A stretch of DNA of 64,000 nt, from NCBI RefSeq assembly GCF_001886735.1, contig NZ_CP018076.1:620001-684000 (forward strand), written 5' to 3'. Positions 46,381-58,819 of this stretch are shown here, one piece after another (the stretch's first letter is position 1; every line of letters begins with the position of its first letter). The notes under the pieces were generated by a model that saw only the letters and a list, made by a program, of their open reading frames with translations, was not told where the DNA came from and ran no database searches. The DNA is from Sulfitobacter alexandrii. Its GTDB lineage: Bacteria > Pseudomonadota > Alphaproteobacteria > Rhodobacterales > Rhodobacteraceae. The translations under genes were made by a program, and so were the position numbers.

Positions 46381-46655
46381 GATATCCTCCCAGATCATCT
46401 GCCGCGCCGCCTCCTCCTCAGGTTGCGCGACTCTCACGCGGGAGGCTAGCCAGTAAATGCGGCGGTGCCAATACCGCAGGTCGGAACTTCGTTTCGCAAA
46501 GTTTCACTTCCCTTGCGTCACACCGCGCGGCGGCCTGCGCACTGCGTCAAAAGATGTCACTCGGCGCAAACGATTTTTCCCCGCTCGCCCTTGAGAAACC
46601 CGAAAAAAATGCTCAACAATACGGGACTGCACAGGCTGACAGACCAGGAGTTCAA
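46349..46655. other. Divergent spacer between ligase operon and mrp operon
   Basis: No gene beyond the possible leader peptide. It carries the promoters of both operons. A rightward candidate is TTGAGA (46591-46596), 18 bp, AACAAT (46615-46620). The mrpA ribosome site CAGGAG lies at 46645-46650. Confidence 0.5.
46591..46620 (+). promoter_or_regulatory. Candidate mrp operon promoter
   Basis: TTGAGA, 18-bp spacer, AACAAT: five of six and four of six matches to the housekeeping consensus. It ends 35 bp before the mrpA GTG. Only a sequence-based suggestion. Confidence 0.4.
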
Positions 46656-49532
46656 GTGTCCCTCTTTCTTATCGTTGCCCTGCCGTTTCTGGGTGCTCTT
46701 CTGCCCGGACTGATGAATCCGGCGGGGCGCTCTGCCTGTGCCGGCGTGACGTTCACCGTGACCCTTGCCGCCTTCATCGGCCTGCTGACCAACCTTCCGG
46801 CCGTTCTGGCGGGCGACGTGGTGACGGCGGGCGTCGACTGGCTGCCGATGCTGGGCATGAACGTCAACCTGATGCTGGACGGCCTGGGCTTCTTCTTTGC
46901 CGCGTTGATCCTGGGTATCGGGCTGCTGATCATCACCTACGGGCGGTTCTACCTGTCGCGCAAGGACAACATGGGAGAGTTCTTTACCTACCTGTTGCTT
47001 TTCCAGGGCGCGATGGTGGGCATCGTGCTGTCCGACAACATCCTGCTTTTGCTGGTATTCTGGGAACTCACCTCGCTGTCGTCCTTTCTGTTGATCGGGT
47101 ACTGGAAGCATCTGCCCGAAGGACGGCAGGGCGCGCGCATGGCCTTGACGGTGACCGGGATGGGGGGCCTTGCCATGATCGGGGGAATGCTGATCCTGGG
47201 CCAGATCGTGGGCAGCTACGACCTGAGCGTGATCCTGCAAAACCGCGATATGATCCAGGCCAGCCCGCTTTACATGCCCGCGCTGATCCTGATCCTGCTG
47301 GGGTGCTTCACCAAGTCGGCGCAGTTCCCCTTCCACTTCTGGCTGCCGCACGCCATGGCGGCGCCCACGCCGGTCAGCGCCTACCTGCACTCCGCCACGA
47401 TGGTAAAGGCGGGCATCTTCCTGATGGCGCGGATGTGGCCGGTGCTGTCGGGCACGCCGGAATGGTTCGTGATCGTGACCACGGCGGGGCTGGTGACGAT
47501 GGTTCTTGGCGCAGTCATCGCGCTGTTCAAGCATGATCTCAAGGCGCTGCTGGCCTTTTCGACCGTGTCGCACCTGGGGCTGATCACGATGCTGCTGGGC
47601 ACCGGCACGGCCTTTGGCGCGATGGCGGCGGTGTTCCACATTCTCAACCACGCGACCTTCAAGGCGGCGCTTTTCATGTCGGCGGGCATCGTCGACCACG
47701 AGGCGCATACCCGCGACATCCGGCGGCTGGGCGGGTTGCGTCACCTGATGCCCATCACCTTTGTCATCGCCACGGTGGCGGCGCTGTCGATGGCCGGTAT
47801 CCCGTTGCTGAACGGGTTTCTCAGCAAGGAGATGATGCTGGAGGAGGCCACCCATACGGTGCTTTTCGATACCTGGTGGCTGGTGCCGGCGCTGGCGCTG
47901 ATCGGGTCGTTGTTCTCCGCCGCCTATTGTTTCCGTCTGATCGGTCACACTTTCCTTGGCCCGAAGCGCGACGACTATCCGGCGCACCCGCACGATCCGC
48001 CCTTTGGCATGTGGGCGCCGCCCGCGCTGCTGGTGGTGCTGGTCGTGGTGATCGGAATTGCGCCTTTCCTCGTTCAGGATTTCGTCTTCCTCGTGGCGCG
48101 CGCCGTGATCGGCGGTGTGGCCGAGCTGGATGTGCACTATATCAAGATCTGGCATGGCCTTGTGCCCGCGCTCTACATGTCCGTCGCCGCGGTGGTCGGG
48201 GGCCTTATCGTGCTGGCACTGTTCAATCCCTTGCTGCGCATGTGGGACGCGGCCCCGCGGCCCGAGGCCAAGACCATCTTCGAGGCGATCATCGCCGGCG
48301 CGGTCGCGCTGGCGCGGCGGAGCATTCACGGGCTGAACAACGGGGCCTTCACCCGCTACGCTGCGATCATGGCTGTGACCGTGGTGGCACTGGGATATCA
48401 CGCATGGCGGACCGGCACGATCGGCCCCGCGACCCGGACCATGCAGCCCGCCGGCGCGATCGAGATCGCGGGCTGGGCGATGCTGGTGGCGGCGACGCTG
48501 GGGCTGGTGTTCCTGCACCGCAACCGCCTGCTGTCGCTGATCCTGATCGCCATCGTGGGGCTGATGGTGTCGGTCGGTTTCGTCGTGTTCAGCGCGCCCG
48601 ACCTCGCCATGACCCAGCTTACCGTCGAGGTGGTGACGATCATCCTGCTGTTGCTGGCTCTGAACTTTCTGCCGAACCGCACGCCGGTGGAAAGCACCGT
48701 GCTGCGGCGCATGCGCGACGTGGCGGTGGCGATTGCCGGTGGTGTGACGGCGGCGTTCATGTCGTGGCATTTCCTGCTGCGGGACGCGGTGGCCCCCCCG
48801 ATTTCCGAGTTCCACCTCGCCAACTCCTACAAGGGCGGGGGCGGCACCAACGTCGTGAACGTGATCCTCGTGGACTTCCGGGGCTTCGATACCTTTGGCG
48901 AGATCATCGTGCTGGGCATCGCGGCGCTGCTGATCTACGCCCTGACGGAAACCCTGCTGGACGGCCCGGTACGGGCGCGGCTGCTGAACCGCAAGCCGGA
49001 CCAGCCGCGCGCCGGCGACATGCATCCGATGATGATGGTGGTGCTGACGCGCGTGATCATGCCGGTGGTGCTGATGGTGGGTTTCTACATCTTCCTGAGG
49101 GGGCATAACGAACCGGGCGGCGGGTTCATCGCGGGTCTGGTGGTGTCCATCGCCGTGGTGATGCAGTACATGGCCAGCGGCTTCAGCTGGGCCGCCGCGC
49201 GGCAGCGCTATCCCTATCATGGGATCATCGGCGCGGGCGTGCTCGTGGCCGGGCTGACCGGCATCGGGTCGTGGTTCGTGAGCAAGCCCTTCCTGACCTC
49301 GGATTACACCTATGTCCGCATACCGCCTTTCCACGAGTTCGAACTGGCGACGGCGGCGCTGTTCGACCTGGGCGTCTTCCTCGCCGTCGTCGGCGCGGTG
49401 ATGCTGTCCCTGGAGAGCTTCTCGCGGCTGGCGCGCCGCGCGCACATGCCCGAAACGGACCACGCGATGGACATCGACCCCTCGCGCGATCCCGACGATC
49501 CCACAAATCCCAAACTCGAAGGGGGCGTGTGA
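46656..49532 (+). CDS. mrpA: Mrp-type Na+/H+ antiporter subunit A, fused with subunit B domain
   Basis: Largest subunit of the multi-subunit Mrp/Mnh cation-proton antiporter, related to NADH dehydrogenase antiporter-like subunits. The GTG start at 46656 has a CAGGAG site and gives VSLFLIVALPFLGALLPG; a longer frame from 46554 is polar and unlike the family. Key regions are FWELTSLSSFLLIGYW, FPFHFWLPHAMAAPTPVSAYLHSATMVKAG (about residues 228-257) and the MrpB-like C-terminal part MMVVLTRVIMPVVLMVGFY with GHNEPGGGFIAG (about 790-830). 958 aa matches an A-B fusion; no separate mrpB follows. Confidence 0.94.
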   Translation: MSLFLIVALPFLGALLPGLMNPAGRSACAGVTFTVTLAAFIGLLTNLPAVLAGDVVTAGVDWLPMLGMNVNLMLDGLGFFFAALILGIGLLIITYGRFYLSRKDNMGEFFTYLLLFQGAMVGIVLSDNILLLLVFWELTSLSSFLLIGYWKHLPEGRQGARMALTVTGMGGLAMIGGMLILGQIVGSYDLSVILQNRDMIQASPLYMPALILILLGCFTKSAQFPFHFWLPHAMAAPTPVSAYLHSATMVKAGIFLMARMWPVLSGTPEWFVIVTTAGLVTMVLGAVIALFKHDLKALLAFSTVSHLGLITMLLGTGTAFGAMAAVFHILNHATFKAALFMSAGIVDHEAHTRDIRRLGGLRHLMPITFVIATVAALSMAGIPLLNGFLSKEMMLEEATHTVLFDTWWLVPALALIGSLFSAAYCFRLIGHTFLGPKRDDYPAHPHDPPFGMWAPPALLVVLVVVIGIAPFLVQDFVFLVARAVIGGVAELDVHYIKIWHGLVPALYMSVAAVVGGLIVLALFNPLLRMWDAAPRPEAKTIFEAIIAGAVALARRSIHGLNNGAFTRYAAIMAVTVVALGYHAWRTGTIGPATRTMQPAGAIEIAGWAMLVAATLGLVFLHRNRLLSLILIAIVGLMVSVGFVVFSAPDLAMTQLTVEVVTIILLLLALNFLPNRTPVESTVLRRMRDVAVAIAGGVTAAFMSWHFLLRDAVAPPISEFHLANSYKGGGGTNVVNVILVDFRGFDTFGEIIVLGIAALLIYALTETLLDGPVRARLLNRKPDQPRAGDMHPMMMVVLTRVIMPVVLMVGFYIFLRGHNEPGGGFIAGLVVSIAVVMQYMASGFSWAAARQRYPYHGIIGAGVLVAGLTGIGSWFVSKPFLTSDYTYVRIPPFHEFELATAALFDLGVFLAVVGAVMLSLESFSRLARRAHMPETDHAMDIDPSRDPDDPTNPKLEGGV

Positions 49533-52047: not shown

Positions 52048-52331
52048 CCCTTGCCAATGACGTGATGCAATGGTGCCTGGTCGCGGCCTTCGTCTGTGTC
52101 GCGCTGAGCCAGCTTGGCGCGATGGTGCGGCTGTTGATCGGGCCGTCCACGGGCGACCGGATTCTGGCCCTCGACACGATGGTGATCAACGCCATCGGCC
52201 TGATCGTGCTTCTGGGCCTGGCTCAGGGAACCGCCATCTATTTCGAGGCTTCGCTGATCATCGCCATGCTCGGCTTCGTGTCGACCGTGGCCTACGCGCG
52301 GTTCGTGCTGCGGGGGGACATCATCGAATGA
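52044..52331 (+). CDS. mrpF: Mrp-type Na+/H+ antiporter subunit F
   Basis: Subunit F, 95 aa with three spans. The central LLIGPSTGDRILALDTMVIN (about residues 30-49) is the family hallmark, with the conserved Asp pair between spans. It overlaps mrpE and mrpG by 4 bp each. Confidence 0.93.
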   Translation: MTLANDVMQWCLVAAFVCVALSQLGAMVRLLIGPSTGDRILALDTMVINAIGLIVLLGLAQGTAIYFEASLIIAMLGFVSTVAYARFVLRGDIIE

Positions 52332-52726
52332 CGTTCGAAGTGATTGGAACCTATGCCGCGGCCTTCTGCCTTGTCGTGGGCGCGGTTTTTGCCCTAGTGG
52401 CGGCAATCGGCCTTCTGAAGCTGAACGATTCCATGACCCGGCTGCACGCCCCCACCAAGGTGGGGACGGTGGGGATCGGGTCGCTGCTGCTGGCGTCGAT
52501 GATCCATTCCTTCGTCGTCGGCGAAGGCTCGCTGCACGAGCTGCTGATCATCGCTTTCCTGTTCGTGACGGCACCGATTTCGGCGAATTTCATCGCCAAG
52601 GTGAACATCCACAAGCGTGCCTGCGACATGCCGCCGGCACCGCCCCGGGATGACACGTGGTCGACCCTGAATGTGCCGGCGGCGGACCTCGAGATCGAGG
52701 AAACGGAAACTGAGCCGACGCGCTAA
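52328..52726 (+). CDS. mrpG: Mrp-type Na+/H+ antiporter subunit G
   Basis: Subunit G, 132 aa with three spans and an acidic C-terminal tail. The hallmark is GLLKLNDSMTRLHAPTKVGT (about residues 28-47), followed by GIGSLLLASMIHSF. The ATG at 52328 overlaps the mrpF stop. The stop lies only 2 bp from the stop of the convergent secreted-protein gene, with no room for a terminator. Confidence 0.93.
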   Translation: MTFEVIGTYAAAFCLVVGAVFALVAAIGLLKLNDSMTRLHAPTKVGTVGIGSLLLASMIHSFVVGEGSLHELLIIAFLFVTAPISANFIAKVNIHKRACDMPPAPPRDDTWSTLNVPAADLEIEETETEPTR

Positions 52727-52728
52727 GT

Positions 52729-53991
52729 TTACGGTTGGCGCGTCCGGATCAGCGCCTTGAGTTCTGCGAGTTCGGCGCGCAACGCGTCGACCTCCGCCAG
52801 ACGGGCCTCCTGCTCCAGCGTATATAGCGTCAGTTCCTCGACCTTTTTCAGCAGGGTCATCTGCATCTGCGTCAGGTCGACACCCTCCGCCCTGATCTCG
52901 GCCTCGGAGGGCACGTCCGGTAGGTGGCTGTTCGCGTCGATGAAGGCGCGGACCTCGGGCAGGGGTTTGAGGGCGTAGTCATCGGCGAACACGTAGTCCG
53001 GCACGTTCATGTCGATGTTGTTGACGACGAGCGTGCCGGTCACGACGACCTCGTCCGGGCGGCCGTTGCGGCCCAGCCGCAGCAAATTGTTGGCCGCGAG
53101 GTTGTCGATCTTGAAAGGGGTGTTCCCGCCCGCGATGCCGACGTTCAGCCGGCCCGAGCTTTGCTGGTTGCGGAACTCCCAGGTGGTCGGGATGGTGCCG
53201 TTCTGCCGGATCCGGAACGCCGAGTCGGACCCGGCCCCCTGGGCGTCGAACAGCGCGAAGGAGTCCGTGTTCGGCGCGGTGGTCAAGATGTGCAGCTTTT
53301 CCTCGGGTACAGCGGTGCCCAGACCGACGTCGCCATTGTCCTTGATCCGGAACGCGGCGTAGGGCGCATCCGCCTCGATGACGAAACTGGCTGCGCTGCG
53401 GATGATCGAAAATTCGTTGTGGTTGCCTTGCATCCGCCATGTCGATGCGGGGTTTCCCGTCGATGTTGATTGCTCCAGCCGGATGGAGGGAAAGGAGGGG
53501 CCGACGATGTGCAGTTCGGATGCGGGAAACATCGTTCCCAGCCCCAGTTTGCCGTCACTCGCGAGGAACAGGGCGTTGTCTGGCGCACCACCGGCAATGG
53601 TGAAGGGTGTGGTTCCCGCCGTGGCGTCCTCGACTGCGAATTTCTCCAGCCCCCCTGCGTCGTTGTCGTTGATCCGCAGAACCCAGTCGCGATCAGGATT
53701 GGAGGGTCCGGAGGTGTCGTTGAACTCGATCGTGTTCTGAGTGTACTGGAAACGCAGTGTCACATCGTTCGCGAAGGTCTCGTTCGTGGTGCAGGTATTG
53801 CCGATGCACAGACTGCCGTCGATGACGCTGTCGTCTTCGACGTAGAGACTGCCGGAGGCGGGGGATGTGGACTCACTGATGGTCAGATCGCCCTGGATGG
53901 TCGTGTCTCCGGGGATGACCGTCTGAGCCGAAAGGGGCGCCGCGGCCAGCACACACGCCAGACAGTATAGAACCTTGAAATCGGATTTCAT
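52729..53991 (-). CDS. Secreted repeat-family protein, tandem copy 1
   Basis: Uncharacterised exported protein of 420 aa. A Sec signal (MKSDFKVLYCLACVLAAAPLSA) precedes the mature part. It has the family LCIGNTC motif (two Cys four residues apart), LGLGTMFPASELHIV and VGLGTAVPEEKLHIL repeats, the block GRLNVGIAGGNTPFKIDN, and a C-terminal module from about residue 325 (MNVPDYVFADDY, then HLPDVPSEAEI) ending in a coiled coil. Similar GxGTxxPxxxLH repeats occur in phage tail-fibre and bacterial surface proteins, but no S74 autoprotease motif is seen. It is the most divergent in its N-terminus of the four. Own promoter at 54071-54100. Function unknown. Confidence 0.88.
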   Translation of the reverse strand: MKSDFKVLYCLACVLAAAPLSAQTVIPGDTTIQGDLTISESTSPASGSLYVEDDSVIDGSLCIGNTCTTNETFANDVTLRFQYTQNTIEFNDTSGPSNPDRDWVLRINDNDAGGLEKFAVEDATAGTTPFTIAGGAPDNALFLASDGKLGLGTMFPASELHIVGPSFPSIRLEQSTSTGNPASTWRMQGNHNEFSIIRSAASFVIEADAPYAAFRIKDNGDVGLGTAVPEEKLHILTTAPNTDSFALFDAQGAGSDSAFRIRQNGTIPTTWEFRNQQSSGRLNVGIAGGNTPFKIDNLAANNLLRLGRNGRPDEVVVTGTLVVNNIDMNVPDYVFADDYALKPLPEVRAFIDANSHLPDVPSEAEIRAEGVDLTQMQMTLLKKVEELTLYTLEQEARLAEVDALRAELAELKALIRTRQP

Positions 53992-54065
53992 GAGCTTGCT
54001 CCCGCCGGTCAAAATGAACCGGCCTAATGATACTTTGAAATGATCCAGCCCGTTTCGGGGTGGTG

Positions 54066-54091
54066 GGCAAAGGCTATGCGAAGCCTTTGCC
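54066..54091 (-). repeat. 10-bp inverted repeat over the copy 1 promoter
   Basis: GGCAAAGGCT, ATGCGA, AGCCTTTGCC: a perfect stem that overlaps the -10 and spacer of the copy 1 promoter. It could be an operator, or a terminator-like hairpin for copy 2 although no T run follows. Confidence 0.55.
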
Positions 54092-54100
54092 GTCTGTCAA
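54071..54100 (-). promoter_or_regulatory. Promoter of tandem copy 1
   Basis: Minus strand: TTGACA (54100-54095), 18-bp spacer, TAGCCT (54076-54071). The same TTTGACAG...TAGNCT layout with an 18-bp spacer precedes copies 2 and 3. The -35 lies 4 bp past the copy 2 stop. Confidence 0.65.
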
Positions 54101-54104
54101 AGAA

Positions 54105-55295
54105 TCACCGATCTGCCATCAGTTTTTCCACCATGGCGCGAAGCTCCGCGATTTCGGCGCGTTGCGCCGTGATTTCGCGGTCCTGCGAAATCGTGTGCAG
54201 TGTCAGTTCCTCGATCTTCTCGAGCTGCGCCATCTGCATCCGGGACATGTCGAGCCCTGTCTCCGCTACATCGGCCGCAGAGGGGACGCCGGGCAGATGG
54301 CCGTTGTCCGCGATGAAGGCATCGACTTCCGCAAGGGTCGGCAGGTCGTAGCCGGGTTCAAACACGTAGTCAGGCACGTTCATGTCGGTGTTGTTGACCA
54401 CGAGCGTGCCGGTCACGACGACTTCGTTCCGGCGGCCGTCACGTCCAATCTTGAGCAGGTTGTCTGCGGCCCGATTGTCGATCTTGAGAGGGGTGTTGCC
54501 GTTCTTAAGCCCGATATTCAGACGGCCGGAGCCCTGCTTGTTTCTGATTTCCCACGTGCTTCCGACGTCACCGCTCTGGCCCAGAAGGAGACCTGCGTCC
54601 GAGCCTTCGCCAAAGGCATAGACGTGGATGAGGGCATCGGTGTCAGGCGCGTCCGTGGCGACATCGAGCACTTCGGACGGGATTCTTCTCCCGATCCCTA
54701 CCTTGCCTTCGGAGCTCACGAAGAACGCGCCGTTGGGCGCACCCGCGCGTATCTCGAAAGGCGTCGTCCGGTCCTGCAGGTCGTAGAGGGAAAATCCTGT
54801 GTTGCTCGCTCGAAGGTCCCAAGTGTAGTTCGGAGCCACCGTTTCTTCGAAACGGATCCCGGCGTAATCTCGACCGATGATATGGATATCCTGCTGCGGA
54901 AAGGCCGTTCCCAGCCCGAGGTTGCCATTGGGCTGAAGCCGGAGGCTATTTGTCTGCGCGTTTGCATCCACGCGGAACGGGACCGAACCGGAATTGGAAT
55001 GCTCGATCGCGAAATAGTTGTCGAAGCCGCCTGCGCCGTCGTTGATGAGGATCCGCCAGTCGTCGTTCGTCGACTGGCCAGGCGAGGACGTGTCTTCGAA
55101 ATCTAGACGCACCGTGCTGTTCTTGAGACGAAGCTGATTGTCATCGCGTGTCTCGGCGTCCAGGCAGGGGCCGCCGACGCAGAGAAAGCTCCGGATGGTT
55201 GGACTGCTGTTCGAGAGTACTTCGGCTTGGGCGGACAACGGAGCCAGCAGGCCGAGCGCGGTGGAAAAGAAAACGGATATTTGGAAACGGGTCAA
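54105..55295 (-). CDS. Secreted repeat-family protein, tandem copy 2
   Basis: Exported protein of 396 aa. Sec signal MTRFQISVFFSTALGLLAPL, cleaved after AQA near residue 25. The mature protein has NPTIRSFLCVGGPC-type start (here SSPTIRSFLCVGGPC), the NDDWRILINDG block, LGLGTAFPQQDIHII, then the C-terminal module NTDMNVPDYVFEPGYDLPTL and a terminal coiled coil. The start codon is TTG at 55295, in the same position as the ATG of copy 3 and after a GGGAG site. Its middle region (GLKNGNTPLKIDNRAADNLL) is divergent from the other three. Function unknown. Confidence 0.88.
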   Translation of the reverse strand: MTRFQISVFFSTALGLLAPLSAQAEVLSNSSPTIRSFLCVGGPCLDAETRDDNQLRLKNSTVRLDFEDTSSPGQSTNDDWRILINDGAGGFDNYFAIEHSNSGSVPFRVDANAQTNSLRLQPNGNLGLGTAFPQQDIHIIGRDYAGIRFEETVAPNYTWDLRASNTGFSLYDLQDRTTPFEIRAGAPNGAFFVSSEGKVGIGRRIPSEVLDVATDAPDTDALIHVYAFGEGSDAGLLLGQSGDVGSTWEIRNKQGSGRLNIGLKNGNTPLKIDNRAADNLLKIGRDGRRNEVVVTGTLVVNNTDMNVPDYVFEPGYDLPTLAEVDAFIADNGHLPGVPSAADVAETGLDMSRMQMAQLEKIEELTLHTISQDREITAQRAEIAELRAMVEKLMADR

Positions 55296-55386
55296 GAAAA
55301 ACTCCCTGCATTTTGCGGGGGCACTAATAATAACCCTGAGTAATCAGGGGTTTGATCGCTCGCTGCCCCCTCCGGCGAGCAGGAAA

Positions 55387-55416
55387 AGTCTAGGCGAGGG
55401 GGCGGCAGCCTGTCAA
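55387..55416 (-). promoter_or_regulatory. Promoter of tandem copy 2
   Basis: Minus strand: TTGACA (55416-55411), 18-bp spacer, TAGACT (55392-55387). The transcript would have an untranslated leader of about 85 nt containing a CCCTGA/TCAGGG hairpin (55334-55349) and the GGGGCACT element shared with copy 3 (plus strand 55317-55324). Confidence 0.7.
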
Positions 55417-55468
55417 ATCTGCCGCCCGTCGGCACGCCAGCCGGGGCCGTCTTCATGCCGCTGGACGG

Positions 55469-56659
55469 TCAGCGATCGGCCAACAGGGCTTCGATCATGC
55501 CTTCGAGCAGGGCAATGCGGTCGCGCTGTTCTGCATTCGCCTTGCCCAGGTCGATGACATGCAGCGTCAGTTCCTCGATCTTCTCCAGCTGGGCCATCTG
55601 CATCCGGGTCATGTCGAGACCAGACTCAGCCACTTCGGCGGCCGAGGGGACGCCGGGCAGATGGCCGTTGTCCGCGATGAAGGCATCGACTTCCGCAAGG
55701 GTCGGCAGGTCGTAGCCGGGTTCGAACACGTAGTCTGGCACGTTCATGTCGGTGTTGTTGACCACCAGCGTGCCGGTCACGACGACCTCGTCCGGGCGGC
55801 CGTTGCGGCCCAGCCGCAGCAGGTTGTTGGCTGCGAGGTTATCGATCTTGAAGGGGGTATTCCCGCCCGCGATGCCGACGTTCAGCCGCCCCGAGGTCTG
55901 CTGGTTGCGGAACTCCCATGTGGTCGGGATCAGGCCGTTCTGCCGGATCCGGAACGCCGAGTCGGACCCGGGCCCCTGGGCGTCGAACAGCGCGAAGGAA
56001 TCGGTGTTCGGCGTCGTGGTCACGATGTGCAGCTTTTCTTCGGGGTTTCGGGTACCGATGCCGGTAAACCCGACCGAGTCGATCAGGAAGGCACCGTTGG
56101 GCGCGCCCCCGCGGACTTCGAAAGGAATACCGCTGCTTTGAGGATCAAAGAGGTAGAAGCCCGCACTGTTGCCTCTCAGCTCCCAGGCGAATGCCCCGCC
56201 AGAAAATTCTTCGAAACGAATCCCGGCTTCGCCACTGCCGACGATATGCAGGTTCTGTTGCGGCAGGGCCGTTCCCAGCCCCAGGTTCCCCGCGGCATTC
56301 ACCTTCAGCGCGTTCGTGGGGGCGCCGGCATCGACGCGGAACGGCGTGAGGCCGGCGCTTGCATCGTTAATCGAGAAGTAGCTCTCGCCGCCGCCGAAAG
56401 TATCGTTGATCACGATCCTCCAATCATTGGTCGGCAAGCCAGCAACGTCAGAGTCGTCTTCGAAATGCAGCCGGACGCTATTTCCTTTCAAGCGCAGCTC
56501 GTCGCCTTGGGGGTTCTCGGGATCGATGCAACCGGGGCCGACACAGAGGAAGCTTCTGATCGTCGGGTTCGTCGTGGAAAGCACCTCGGCGTAGGCGGTA
56601 ATGGGCGCGAGCAGGCTCAGCGCGGCTGAGAACAGGAAAGTGGAACGAAAACGGGTCAT
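55469..56659 (-). CDS. Secreted repeat-family protein, tandem copy 3
   Basis: Exported protein of 396 aa. Sec signal MTRFRSTFLFSAALSLLAPI, cleaved after AYA near residue 25. It has NPTIRSFLCVGPGC, the NDWRIVINDTFGGGESYFSI block, LGLGTALPQQNLHIV, TGIGTRNPEEKLHIV and the C-terminal NTDMNVPDYVFEPGYDLPTL module with coiled coil. At DNA level its end matches copy 2, its central part copy 1 and its last coiled-coil coding segment copy 4, a mosaic. ATG after a GGGAG site. Function unknown. Confidence 0.89.
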   Translation of the reverse strand: MTRFRSTFLFSAALSLLAPITAYAEVLSTTNPTIRSFLCVGPGCIDPENPQGDELRLKGNSVRLHFEDDSDVAGLPTNDWRIVINDTFGGGESYFSINDASAGLTPFRVDAGAPTNALKVNAAGNLGLGTALPQQNLHIVGSGEAGIRFEEFSGGAFAWELRGNSAGFYLFDPQSSGIPFEVRGGAPNGAFLIDSVGFTGIGTRNPEEKLHIVTTTPNTDSFALFDAQGPGSDSAFRIRQNGLIPTTWEFRNQQTSGRLNVGIAGGNTPFKIDNLAANNLLRLGRNGRPDEVVVTGTLVVNNTDMNVPDYVFEPGYDLPTLAEVDAFIADNGHLPGVPSAAEVAESGLDMTRMQMAQLEKIEELTLHVIDLGKANAEQRDRIALLEGMIEALLADR

Positions 56660-56751
56660 GGCAATGCTCCCAATATATGAAGGGGCACTGAAAATGGGTC
56701 TGCAAATCGCAGGAATTCAAATATCCGCCGCCCCCGGTCGCGGACGGCGTC

Positions 56752-56781
56752 AGGCTAGTGCGACGGGCGGTGCCCTGTCAA
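56752..56781 (-). promoter_or_regulatory. Promoter of tandem copy 3
   Basis: Minus strand: TTGACA (56781-56776), 18-bp spacer, TAGCCT (56757-56752). The leader carries the GGGGCACT element (plus strand 56682-56689) at about the same distance from the start codon as in copy 2. Confidence 0.68.
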
Positions 56782-56823
56782 ACGCGCCGATCGGGACGCG
56801 TCCGGCAGGGCAATCATTCGGTC

Positions 56824-58014
56824 TCAGCGGTTCGAGAGCAGGTCTGTGACCATGCCTTCGAGCAGGGCAATGCGGGCGCGCTGTTCTGCATTCGCCTTGC
56901 CAAGGTCGATGACATGCAGCGTCAGTTCCTCGATCTTCTCGAGCTGGGCAAGCTGCATCCGGGTCATATCAAGCCCTGTTTCGGCTACATCCTCTGCCGA
57001 GGGGACGCCGGGCAGATGACCGTTTTCCGCGATGAAAGCGTCGATTTCCGCGAGGGTCGGCAGATCGTATCCGGGTTCGAAAACGTAGTCCGGCACGTTC
57101 ATCTCGGTATCGTTGACGACCAGCGTGCCGGTGATGACCACCTCGTCCGGGCGGCCGTTGCGGCCCAGCCGCAGCAGGTTGTTGGCGGCGGTGTTGTCGA
57201 TCTTGAAGGGCGTGTTGCCGCCCGCGATGCCGACGTTCAGCCGCCCCGAGGTCTGCTGGTTGCGGAACTCCCACGTGGTGGGGATCAGGCCGTTCTGCTT
57301 GATGCGGAAGGCGGAATCCGATCCGCTCCCCGCCGCCTCGAACAGCGCGAAGGCATCGGTATCGGGGGCGGTGGTGCGGATGTGCAGCAACTCTTCCGGC
57401 GCAGAGGTGCCCAGACCGACGAAGCCACTGCTGACGACGCTGAAGCTGCCGTCGGGGGCGCCCGGTTCGATGCTATAGGGCGTGGTGCCGTTGGTGGCGT
57501 CCGAGACGTAGAATGCGTTGTGGTTCGCATTGATGTCCCAGACCTGCACCGGGGCGCTGCCGCCCCGCTGGTCCATGCGCAGGCTGACGGTACTGGCGTC
57601 CACCATGTGCAATTCCCGCAGCGGCATCGCGGTCTTGAGCCCGATCCGCCCGGTCGGCGCCATGAACAGCGCGTTTTCGGGAGCACCCGCGGAGAGGCGG
57701 AAGATCTGCGGCCCGCGGGTGGCGTCCTGAATGGCAAAGTATTCTTCCGTTCCGCTGGCACTGTCGTTGATCATGATGCGCCAGTCGTTGTCGGGGCTGC
57801 TGGAACTCGACACATCGTCGAAGTGGATGCGGATCGTGTTGTCCTTGATGCGGAAATCGTCGATTCCCGCGATGTCCTGATCGGCGCAGTTGAAACCGAC
57901 GCAAAGAAAGCTCCGGATGGTCGGATTGTCTTCGCTCAGGACTTCGGCCTGGGCGCAGGCAGGTAGGGTGACTGCCGCGACCGCAACAGCGCTGAGATAG
58001 GTCTTCAAGGGCAT
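56824..58014 (-). CDS. Secreted repeat-family protein, tandem copy 4
   Basis: Exported protein; the ATG at 58014 after GAGGA gives 396 aa, the same length as copies 2 and 3. An ATG at 58026 is the alternative. Signal MPLKTYLSAVAVAAVTLPAC ends in AQA near residue 23. Mature features are NPTIRSFLCVGFNC, NDWRIMINDSASGTEEYFAI, VGLGTSAPEELLHI, the shared GRLNVGIAGGNTPFKIDN block, and the C-terminal MNVPDYVFEPGYDLPTL module plus coiled coil. A TTTGACGG -35-like element lies at 58135-58141 (minus strand), but no clear -10 follows. Function unknown. Confidence 0.88.
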   Translation of the reverse strand: MPLKTYLSAVAVAAVTLPACAQAEVLSEDNPTIRSFLCVGFNCADQDIAGIDDFRIKDNTIRIHFDDVSSSSSPDNDWRIMINDSASGTEEYFAIQDATRGPQIFRLSAGAPENALFMAPTGRIGLKTAMPLRELHMVDASTVSLRMDQRGGSAPVQVWDINANHNAFYVSDATNGTTPYSIEPGAPDGSFSVVSSGFVGLGTSAPEELLHIRTTAPDTDAFALFEAAGSGSDSAFRIKQNGLIPTTWEFRNQQTSGRLNVGIAGGNTPFKIDNTAANNLLRLGRNGRPDEVVITGTLVVNDTEMNVPDYVFEPGYDLPTLAEIDAFIAENGHLPGVPSAEDVAETGLDMTRMQLAQLEKIEELTLHVIDLGKANAEQRARIALLEGMVTDLLSNR

Positions 58015-58339: not shown

Positions 58340-58819
58340 CTACCGGAAGTCCTGAAGCGCGCCCAGCAGGTCCAGCAGTTTCTCGTAGTTTTCGTGCCCC
58401 AGCGACCTGCGGATACGGTCTGCGATGCGCAGCGCCTCGGCGTGATTGTCCTCGATCACCTGCTGACCCGCAGGGGTGATCGCCAACATCTGCCGGCGGC
58501 GGTCGCCGTTGTCACGGGTGCGGGTGACAAAGCCTCGGTCCGACAGGCTGCGCACGATCCGCGTGAGACTGGGAAGCAGGAGGCTTGCGCGTTCGGCCAC
58601 TTCCGTCGCGTCGAGCGTGCCGCCCTCGGACAGGACGCGCAGCACGCGCCACTGCTGTTCGGTGATGCCTGTCTCGCTCAACATCTCGCGGACCGGGGCC
58701 ATCACCCTTTCCCGCGCGCGGATCAGCGCGATCGGCAGGGACCGGTCGGTGGGGGGCAGCGTGGATGGTCTGGGATCGTCTGGATCGGTCACGGCAAACC
58801 TGCTTTCGGGTGGGTTCAT
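58340..58819 (-). CDS. hpaR: Homoprotocatechuate operon regulator HpaR (MarR family)
   Basis: MarR-type repressor of 159 aa. RSLPIALIRARERVMAPVREML, GITEQQWRVLRVLSEGGTLDATE (about residues 51-73) and LLLPSLTRIVRSLSDRGFVTR (about 81-101) match the HpaR subgroup closely. It is divergent from hpaF-E-D-G-H, the expected position for their repressor. No strong ribosome site precedes the ATG at 58819. Confidence 0.92.
   Translation of the reverse strand: MNPPESRFAVTDPDDPRPSTLPPTDRSLPIALIRARERVMAPVREMLSETGITEQQWRVLRVLSEGGTLDATEVAERASLLLPSLTRIVRSLSDRGFVTRTRDNGDRRRQMLAITPAGQQVIEDNHAEALRIADRIRRSLGHENYEKLLDLLGALQDFR

Follow-up and report, generated by a model that had tools for sequence, protein, structure and literature searches.

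In this work, four adjacent genes (A to D) of Sulfitobacter alexandrii were analysed, and with a probability of about 0.62 their products are secreted trimeric surface fibres of the tail-fibre-like kind. We favour this reading because a profile of their relatives matches the mosaic adhesive trimer (MAT) fibres of Bdellovibrio bacteriovorus, and because the proteins match such fibres locally in fold, share a C-terminal module with phages and end in a coiled coil rich in the motif RhxxhE. In their layout they look like phage tail fibres made into secreted needles. The genes lie head to tail on the minus strand of a 64,000-nt stretch, here called the window, at positions 620001-684000 of contig C1 in the 4.69-Mb genome (G000, the own genome). 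Their coordinates in the window are as follows.

56824..58014, minus strand, gene A, first of the array, putative secreted fibre protein of 396 aa
55469..56659, minus strand, gene B, putative secreted fibre protein of 396 aa, structure predicted
54105..55295, minus strand, gene C, putative secreted fibre protein of 396 aa, TTG start
52729..53991, minus strand, gene D, putative secreted fibre protein of 420 aa, longer N-terminus

For gene A, an alternative ATG is possible four codons upstream. The four products are paralogues by their identities (against D, C has 45%, B 55% and A 52%, and B shares 65% with A and 60% with C), and 300-nt units recur across the array at a spacing of 1355-1373 bases. 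The original prediction, made from the sequence of this stretch, had described four adjacent reverse-strand genes of 420, 396, 396 and 396 aa with one architecture, and the frames, lengths and paralogy were all borne out. The parts of the architecture are listed here for gene B.

56588..56659, minus strand, Sec-type signal peptide, residues 1-24, read by eye; predicted local distance difference test score (pLDDT) <50 for residues 1-23
56528..56545, minus strand, cysteine pair C-x4-C, residues 39-44
56045..56527, minus strand, variable N-terminal beta half, residues 45-205, with the first capping loop at 126-139
55754..56044, minus strand, exchangeable block, residues 206-302, GRLNVGIAGGNTPFKIDN, with silent sites closely alike in several paralogues
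55613..55753, minus strand, C-terminal module, residues 303-349, MNVPDYVF..HLPGVPS.., also found in phage tail-fibre-like proteins
55475..55612, minus strand, terminal helix or coiled coil, residues 350-395, with the RhxxhE motif RIALLE

Of the shared elements that had been proposed, A, B, C and D all have a single LCxGxxC pair, the GRLNVGIAGGNTPFKIDN-type block (GRLN(V/I)G) and the MNVPDYVF..HLPxVPS module, and inspection by eye gives each a Sec-type N-terminus. The proposed two or three LGxGTxxPxxxLHI repeats are corrected to two capping loops of the GxGTxxPxxxLH type per protein. A loosened regular expression for this loop gave 2, 1, 2 and 2 matches in A, B, C and D and 0 matches in 5000 shuffles of each protein; the second loop of B, TGIGTRNPEEKLHI, at residues ~199-212, was missed solely owing to the T at its start. 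The motif was absent from the other 47 of the 51 window genes found by a simple gene caller. In an alignment of 41 paralogues, which comprises the full-length copies of three strains and excludes broken or partial frames and the divergent copies of the genomes G010 and G006, every mature protein had exactly two cysteines, both in the pair (spacing x4 in 38 and x5 in 3). Two such cysteines in an exported protein suggest a disulphide. Across the same alignment, the entropy was 2.05 and 1.95 bits per site in the two parts of the N half and 0.80-1.35 in the C half. A Pfam scan of A-D gave zero families at E <= 1, hence no anchor or barrel, and no lipobox was seen in them by eye. Homology to a cytoplasmic or enzymatic family, named beforehand as an outcome that would speak against fibres, was rejected on the same Pfam result and on NCBIfam matches (e.g. 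MTA/SAH nucleosidase) far under their cut-off.

The likeness to fibres was observed by both profile and fold. By comparing a profile of 93 relatives with the PDB, the five best rows were all MAT fibres of B. bacteriovorus (PMC10769870, with the PDB entries 8ond, 8ojn, 8onc, 8oml, 8ol4 and 8on4), the best being 8ond (E 6.4e-15); three of these five lay at E <= 0.001, and the MAT entries in the PDB are C-terminal pieces. The structure of gene B, predicted as a single chain, had a mean pLDDT of 84.9, a predicted template modelling score (pTM) of 0.59 and a long terminal helix. In Foldseek, this model had 9 PDB matches at E <= 0.001, which were Bd2133, Bd3182 and T4 gp34, and 130 viral models passed 1e-3. 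Among the 50 viral models listed, 14 were named S74, intramolecular chaperone or tail fibre, and most others had no informative name. The PHROGs matches were the tail-fibre families 18345 and 9942 (gene A, 18345 only), the same families that the phage protein L116 matches at 1e-41 and 1e-50.

The motif RhxxhE specifies trimeric coiled coils. It was present in the tails of 26 of the 41 Sulfitobacter paralogues and in 76 of 140 non-redundant tails. For these two sets, the maxima in 2000 shuffles were 7 and 10, the reversed motif was found 8 and 29 times and KhxxhE 2 and 6 times. Within the window, A and B carry the motif and C and D are without it. The terminal coiled coil proposed for all four has a counterpart in the long helix predicted for B. 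The proposal of surface fibres or oligomeric adhesins is supported for the fibre, by profile, fold and coiled-coil motif statistics, and surface display and adhesion are putative. It is highly probable that the array product is a homotrimer, and likely that it is a surface fibre.

The C-terminal module has a wide distribution of its own. With residues 296-396 as query, 469 proteins were found, and among the 120 carriers listed the module was joined in some to YadA head repeats, fn3 or carbohydrate-binding module (CBM) domains. No family passed its cut-off over the module in 10 carriers compared with Pfam and 10 with NCBIfam; in the 10 compared with Pfam, the rows over the module were all sub-threshold, such as Miff at 16.1 bits (cut-off 23) in P0159. 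PF26696 was discarded as a name for it, being precomputed in 1 of the 120 listed carriers. A scan of IMG/VR with one C-module pattern gave 26 loci encoding relatives, of which 14 were inspected. In six of these a signal peptide is apparent, and their DNA may belong to a host. The eight without one include two near-duplicate pairs, two loci whose start lies beyond the locus and one pair with uncertain starts. Phage neighbours were tested for four of the eight, and they comprised a tail sheath beside L117 (9e-72), a baseplate wedge beside L109 (1.6e-14), a head-tail adaptor beside L116 (2.5e-15) and a weak tail-fibre match beside L124 (4.7e-7). Thus, the module forms the C-terminal end of phage tail-fibre-like proteins in virion gene clusters. 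Modelled alone, it had a pLDDT of 89 and no PDB match at E <= 0.001; the best Foldseek row, barnase at E 3.6, was taken as chance, and the VIA structure comparison covered 17 chains. Homology of the module to S74 was not shown, the profile comparison aligning the coiled coil alone (83.9%, 35 columns). On the other hand, the 'NVGPT' ending of the relatives L030 and L032 proved to be a divergent C module (97.5%, 86 columns, two sequences).

A genome scan gave 30 loci, 7 in Sulfitobacter and 23 elsewhere in several phyla, and 20 of the 23 were put to Pfam, the partial loci L047, L050 and L051 being omitted. PF13884 (S74, endosialidase-chaperone) was found at the end of, or within, 12 of the 20, and seven had no significant Pfam family. 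The Saprospirales relative L044 matched Por_Secre_tail at 25.4 bits (cut-off 27), a near-threshold match to a sorting domain of the type IX secretion system (T9SS) that would mark surface export, and the remaining seven are those without a significant family. Among these seven, inspection by eye places the HLPxVPS module at the end of L028, L048 and L049, and its NVGPT variant at that of L030, L031 and L032. Since S74, HLPxVPS and NVGPT endings follow the same N-terminal module, one conserved N-terminal module appears to pair with interchangeable ends, with HLPxVPS in the place of the S74 chaperone; we infer that it does the same job. Two plasmids, CP012864.1 (Persicobacter) and NZ_CP034347.1 (Roseovarius faecimaris), have 18 and 8 places matching gene B, which looks like further large expansions. 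The single S74 match of the own genome lies outside A-D. A 159-aa protein (L098 1429-1908, C1 at ~1483k) consists of a signal or membrane segment and an S74 domain and stands alone between lon-like and HU-like genes as read by eye, an oddity for an S74 domain without a fibre.

The own genome holds 10 copies, the four in the window, four at C1:968-974k and one each at C1:139k and C1:1722k. Within the genus, matches occur in 5 of 62 genomes (own included) and are absent from 57; the match rows number 10 in the own genome, 20 in EhC04 (G007) and 17 in DFL-14 (G073), where fragments are counted, 4 in G010 and 1 in G006. In the family, 14 of 246 genomes match at E <= 1e-20 (own included) and the other 13 hold one or two rows, in a scan that scored part of the first-look candidates (e.g. 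7 of 25 in the own genome). In all three array-bearing strains, the window array lies between the same two genes.

52070..52726, plus strand, MnhG of the Mrp antiporter, left flank; similarity to the empty site stops at 52733
58340..58819, minus strand, HpaR-like MarR regulator, right flank; similarity to the empty site resumes at 58346

The genome G074, in which no family match was found, has the same two flanking genes with ~345 bases between the homology breaks (window 52733 and 58346) in place of 5.6 kb, and this junction is an empty site. The array is bordered by an Mrp antiporter operon and, at its other end, by the MarR regulator with hpa-catabolic-type genes. For the nearest genes tested, the earlier statement that phage, secretion and sugar genes are lacking next to the array therefore holds. 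One 992-aa protein (window 46554-49532) combines Proton_antipo, MbhD, MbhE and MnhB-type Mrp antiporter parts. In G010, a divergent fibre gene (L065 5620-8294, ~30% identity) adjoins MnhG while the HpaR-like match lies on a different contig, so fibre genes of this kind may repeatedly occupy the end of the Mrp operon. The second array has right-hand neighbours common to three strains and left-hand neighbours common to two, the EhC04 contig beginning inside the array (by eye). Orthologues of the N half of gene A (91% identity) were found in EhC04 and DFL-14, and one of gene D (80%) in DFL-14. Fibre genes in two frames or fragmentary (L059 2416-3734 and G073:C24:244884-245210) indicate copy turnover in EhC04 and DFL-14. 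With respect to regulation, the tandem repeats within or near the array were all short (longest 43 bases), which gives no sign of phase variation, and the signal for promoters and terminators of the array was at chance level.

One paralogue with a signal peptide, at G000:C1:1722438-1723601 (L054, L126), closes a prophage record. It follows an endolysin and a small membrane-type protein, and the integrase (beside tRNA-Arg), the terminase, the major head protein, the tape measure and the tail fibres of the record also precede it. A viral record of IMG/VR matches at 100% identity across 5,185 bases and ends just past this copy, at a boundary that is IMG/VR's own. No common word of at least 14 bases, as an attachment repeat would give, was found between the tRNA-Arg end and the downstream stretch.

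The two halves of the proteins differ in their exchange between copies. At the DNA level, B and D are 92% identical at residues 213-302 (proportion of silent differences, pS, 0.21) against 40-55% in the blocks from the signal to there, and B and C are 95% identical at 303-345 (pS 0.19) against 66% in the preceding block and 67% in the coil. In a silent-site permutation test, p <= 0.001 was reached by 36 of 270 within-genome pairs (14 of 45 in the own genome) and by 24 of 550 between-genome pairs, an odds ratio of 3.4 computed over pairs that are not independent; 35 of the 36 exchanged segments start at or beyond residue 200. The silent identity within the own genome, compared with that of non-orthologous pairs between genomes, was 0.584 against 0.564 in the block (1 of 2000 label shuffles) and 0.540 against 0.513 in the C module (3 of 2000), and no excess was seen in either N part or in the coil. 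The average excess is thus real but small. The best amino-acid match lay in the same genome for 4 (N1), 6 (N2), 18 (block), 12 (C module) and 6 (coil) of the 41 paralogues, where 13.5 are expected by chance, so the two N parts mostly found theirs in another strain (37 and 35 of 41). Furthermore, in some orthologous pairs, such as G007_L055_9569 and G073_L060_8877, the rate of synonymous substitution (dS) rises from 0.15-0.17 over the N half to 0.9-1.1 over the C module and coil, and it is likely that the C end of such pairs was replaced. Taken together, the silent-site tests, the best-match counts and the dS contrast of orthologue halves indicate that C halves are traded among copies and N halves retain their identity across strains. 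This contrast may reflect function, or the need of recombination for sequence identity. Exchange of the prophage copy with the arrays of other strains was not significant (one pair at p 0.001 among 820).

Codon-level diversifying selection was considered but not supported. When 14 chosen orthologous pairs were compared over 5 regions, the nonsynonymous rate (dN) was lower than dS in 69 of 70 comparisons, three dS values being saturated. The lone dN > dS was in region N1 of G007_L055_6716 against G073_L061_5120 (0.16 against 0.10). Among the window paralogues, the nonsynonymous proportion pN exceeded pS once, in the cysteine region of C and D, where sites are saturated. The diversifying expansion put forward earlier therefore stands in that copy number grew in a few Sulfitobacter strains and segments were exchanged, but there is little sign of positive selection on codons.

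We hypothesize that the Sec-exported chains would trimerise starting at the C-terminal coil and the HLPxVPS module, the latter taking the role of the S74 chaperone without its protease. The homotrimer would then fold as a beta-helical needle of ~20 nm (an estimate based on the dimensions of MAT fibres and a rise of 1.5 A for each helical residue), with the N-terminal cysteine pairs stapling the opposite end by disulphides. The variable N half would carry the binding specificity, and the C-terminal half would be a common carrier handed around by gene conversion. At the cell surface, such a fibre could bind glycans or surfaces of algae or other cells, and the arrays would constitute a repertoire. 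Some roseobacter strains were isolated from algae. That the arrays serve as an adhesive repertoire is somewhat favoured, and the polarity of a binding N half and a carrier C half is held with less confidence. More tentatively, the C module could generally play the part of the S74 chaperone without proteolysis, serving as nucleus and cap at the C-terminus of trimeric fibres in phages and in bacteria across phyla. Sulfitobacter strains would then use it as the common carrier of a fibre repertoire, with the carriers swapped by gene conversion under N-terminal recognition heads that stay stable across strains, in a polarity opposite to that of Bdellovibrio, and with prophages moving members between strains.

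The folds and PHROGs profiles of the tail-fibre kind, the patchy occurrence in the genus and the prophage position of one of the ten own copies would also fit cargo derived from or supplied by prophages (lysogenic conversion), which alters the surface of the lysogen, e.g. by blocking phage adsorption or as decoys, and does not serve as an attachment adhesin. We consider this unlikely. The nearest genes of the window array are housekeeping genes, the same in three strains, and by eye this seems to hold for the second array too; only 4 of 50,697 phage records matched, covering <=34% of the query; and Sec signals are in general out of place on virion fibres. The same signals, together with the lack of tail or gene transfer agent genes among the neighbours tested, make it very improbable that the likeness to tail fibres marks fibres that are loaded after export, as alternatives, onto a tailocin or gene transfer agent, as such particles are generally assembled in the cytoplasm.

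There is also a small chance that A-D are periplasmic or outer-membrane structural proteins, such as envelope matrix or stalk parts, with no specific ligand and with copies that are neutral duplicates partly homogenised by conversion. Such proteins would be in line with the purifying selection, with the broken copies in the arrays of other strains and with the lack of a Pfam anchor or barrel and of a lipobox by eye. However, surface fibres are indicated by the tail-fibre-like architecture and by the relatives with S74 or T9SS endings, and the N halves stay distinct, with their best match mostly in another strain, which neutral homogenisation would erase. Secreted trimeric surface fibres are thus retained as the preferred reading.

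Secreted tail-fibre-like adhesins are already known from the MAT fibres, while the phage-shared end module, the reversed polarity, the arrays with an empty site and the prophage-borne member were not found described in a limited literature search. The present reading would extend such adhesins, best known from a bacterial predator, to roseobacters; to our knowledge, Sulfitobacter is not a predatory genus. It also points to a widespread C-terminal module common to phages and bacteria that passes no curated cut-off in the copies of Pfam and NCBIfam searched. If this module nucleates trimers without cleavage, it would be a ready-made assembly tag, and many 'hypothetical protein' genes could be annotated. 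With tail halves swapped between gene copies, the cell would be equipped with surface-binding fibres that can change as a set, and as some strains have arrays where a relative has an empty site, the role of a fibre repertoire can be put to the test.

Among known systems, phage tail fibres are cytoplasmic products of virion operons, whereas A-D have an apparent signal (by eye) and, among the neighbours tested, metabolic and antiporter genes. The phage proteins L109, L116 and L117 nevertheless have the same C module, with best segments 54% (L109) and 44% (L117) identical and with L116 aligned along residues 106-380 at 29%. They measure 559-1862 aa and lie in phage gene clusters, L109 and L117 without an evident signal peptide and L116 with its start beyond the locus. 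The S74 tail spikes and their secreted relatives share the N-terminal module, as in the 12 relatives described above, but their C-terminal PF13884 was not found in A-D. The YadA-type trimeric autotransporters are linked to the array by proteins of the P0127 type, which join YadA head repeats to its C module; the YadA anchor gave no Pfam hit in A-D, and the C-terminus of gene B is a predicted helix. The MAT superfamily is described by a capping-loop beta-helix, an export signal, a homotrimer over the full length of the fibre, a constant N-terminus with a conserved beta domain of ~130 aa after the signal, a variable C-terminal tip and ligand binding at the surface (Caulton et al., 2024, PMC10769870), and the discussion of that paper mentions further bacteria, predatory and otherwise. 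The array proteins are shorter (~400 aa against typically ~1,000 aa) and have another end module with a coiled coil instead of the MAT-type S74 domain. By entropy their polarity is reversed, with a varied N half and a shared C half in place of a constant N-terminus and variable tip, and for this reason we do not class them as MAT members. In apparent export, capping-loop beta-helix, many paralogues and modular ends, however, the MAT fibres are the best match by sequence and fold, and it is probably in their manner that the array proteins work.

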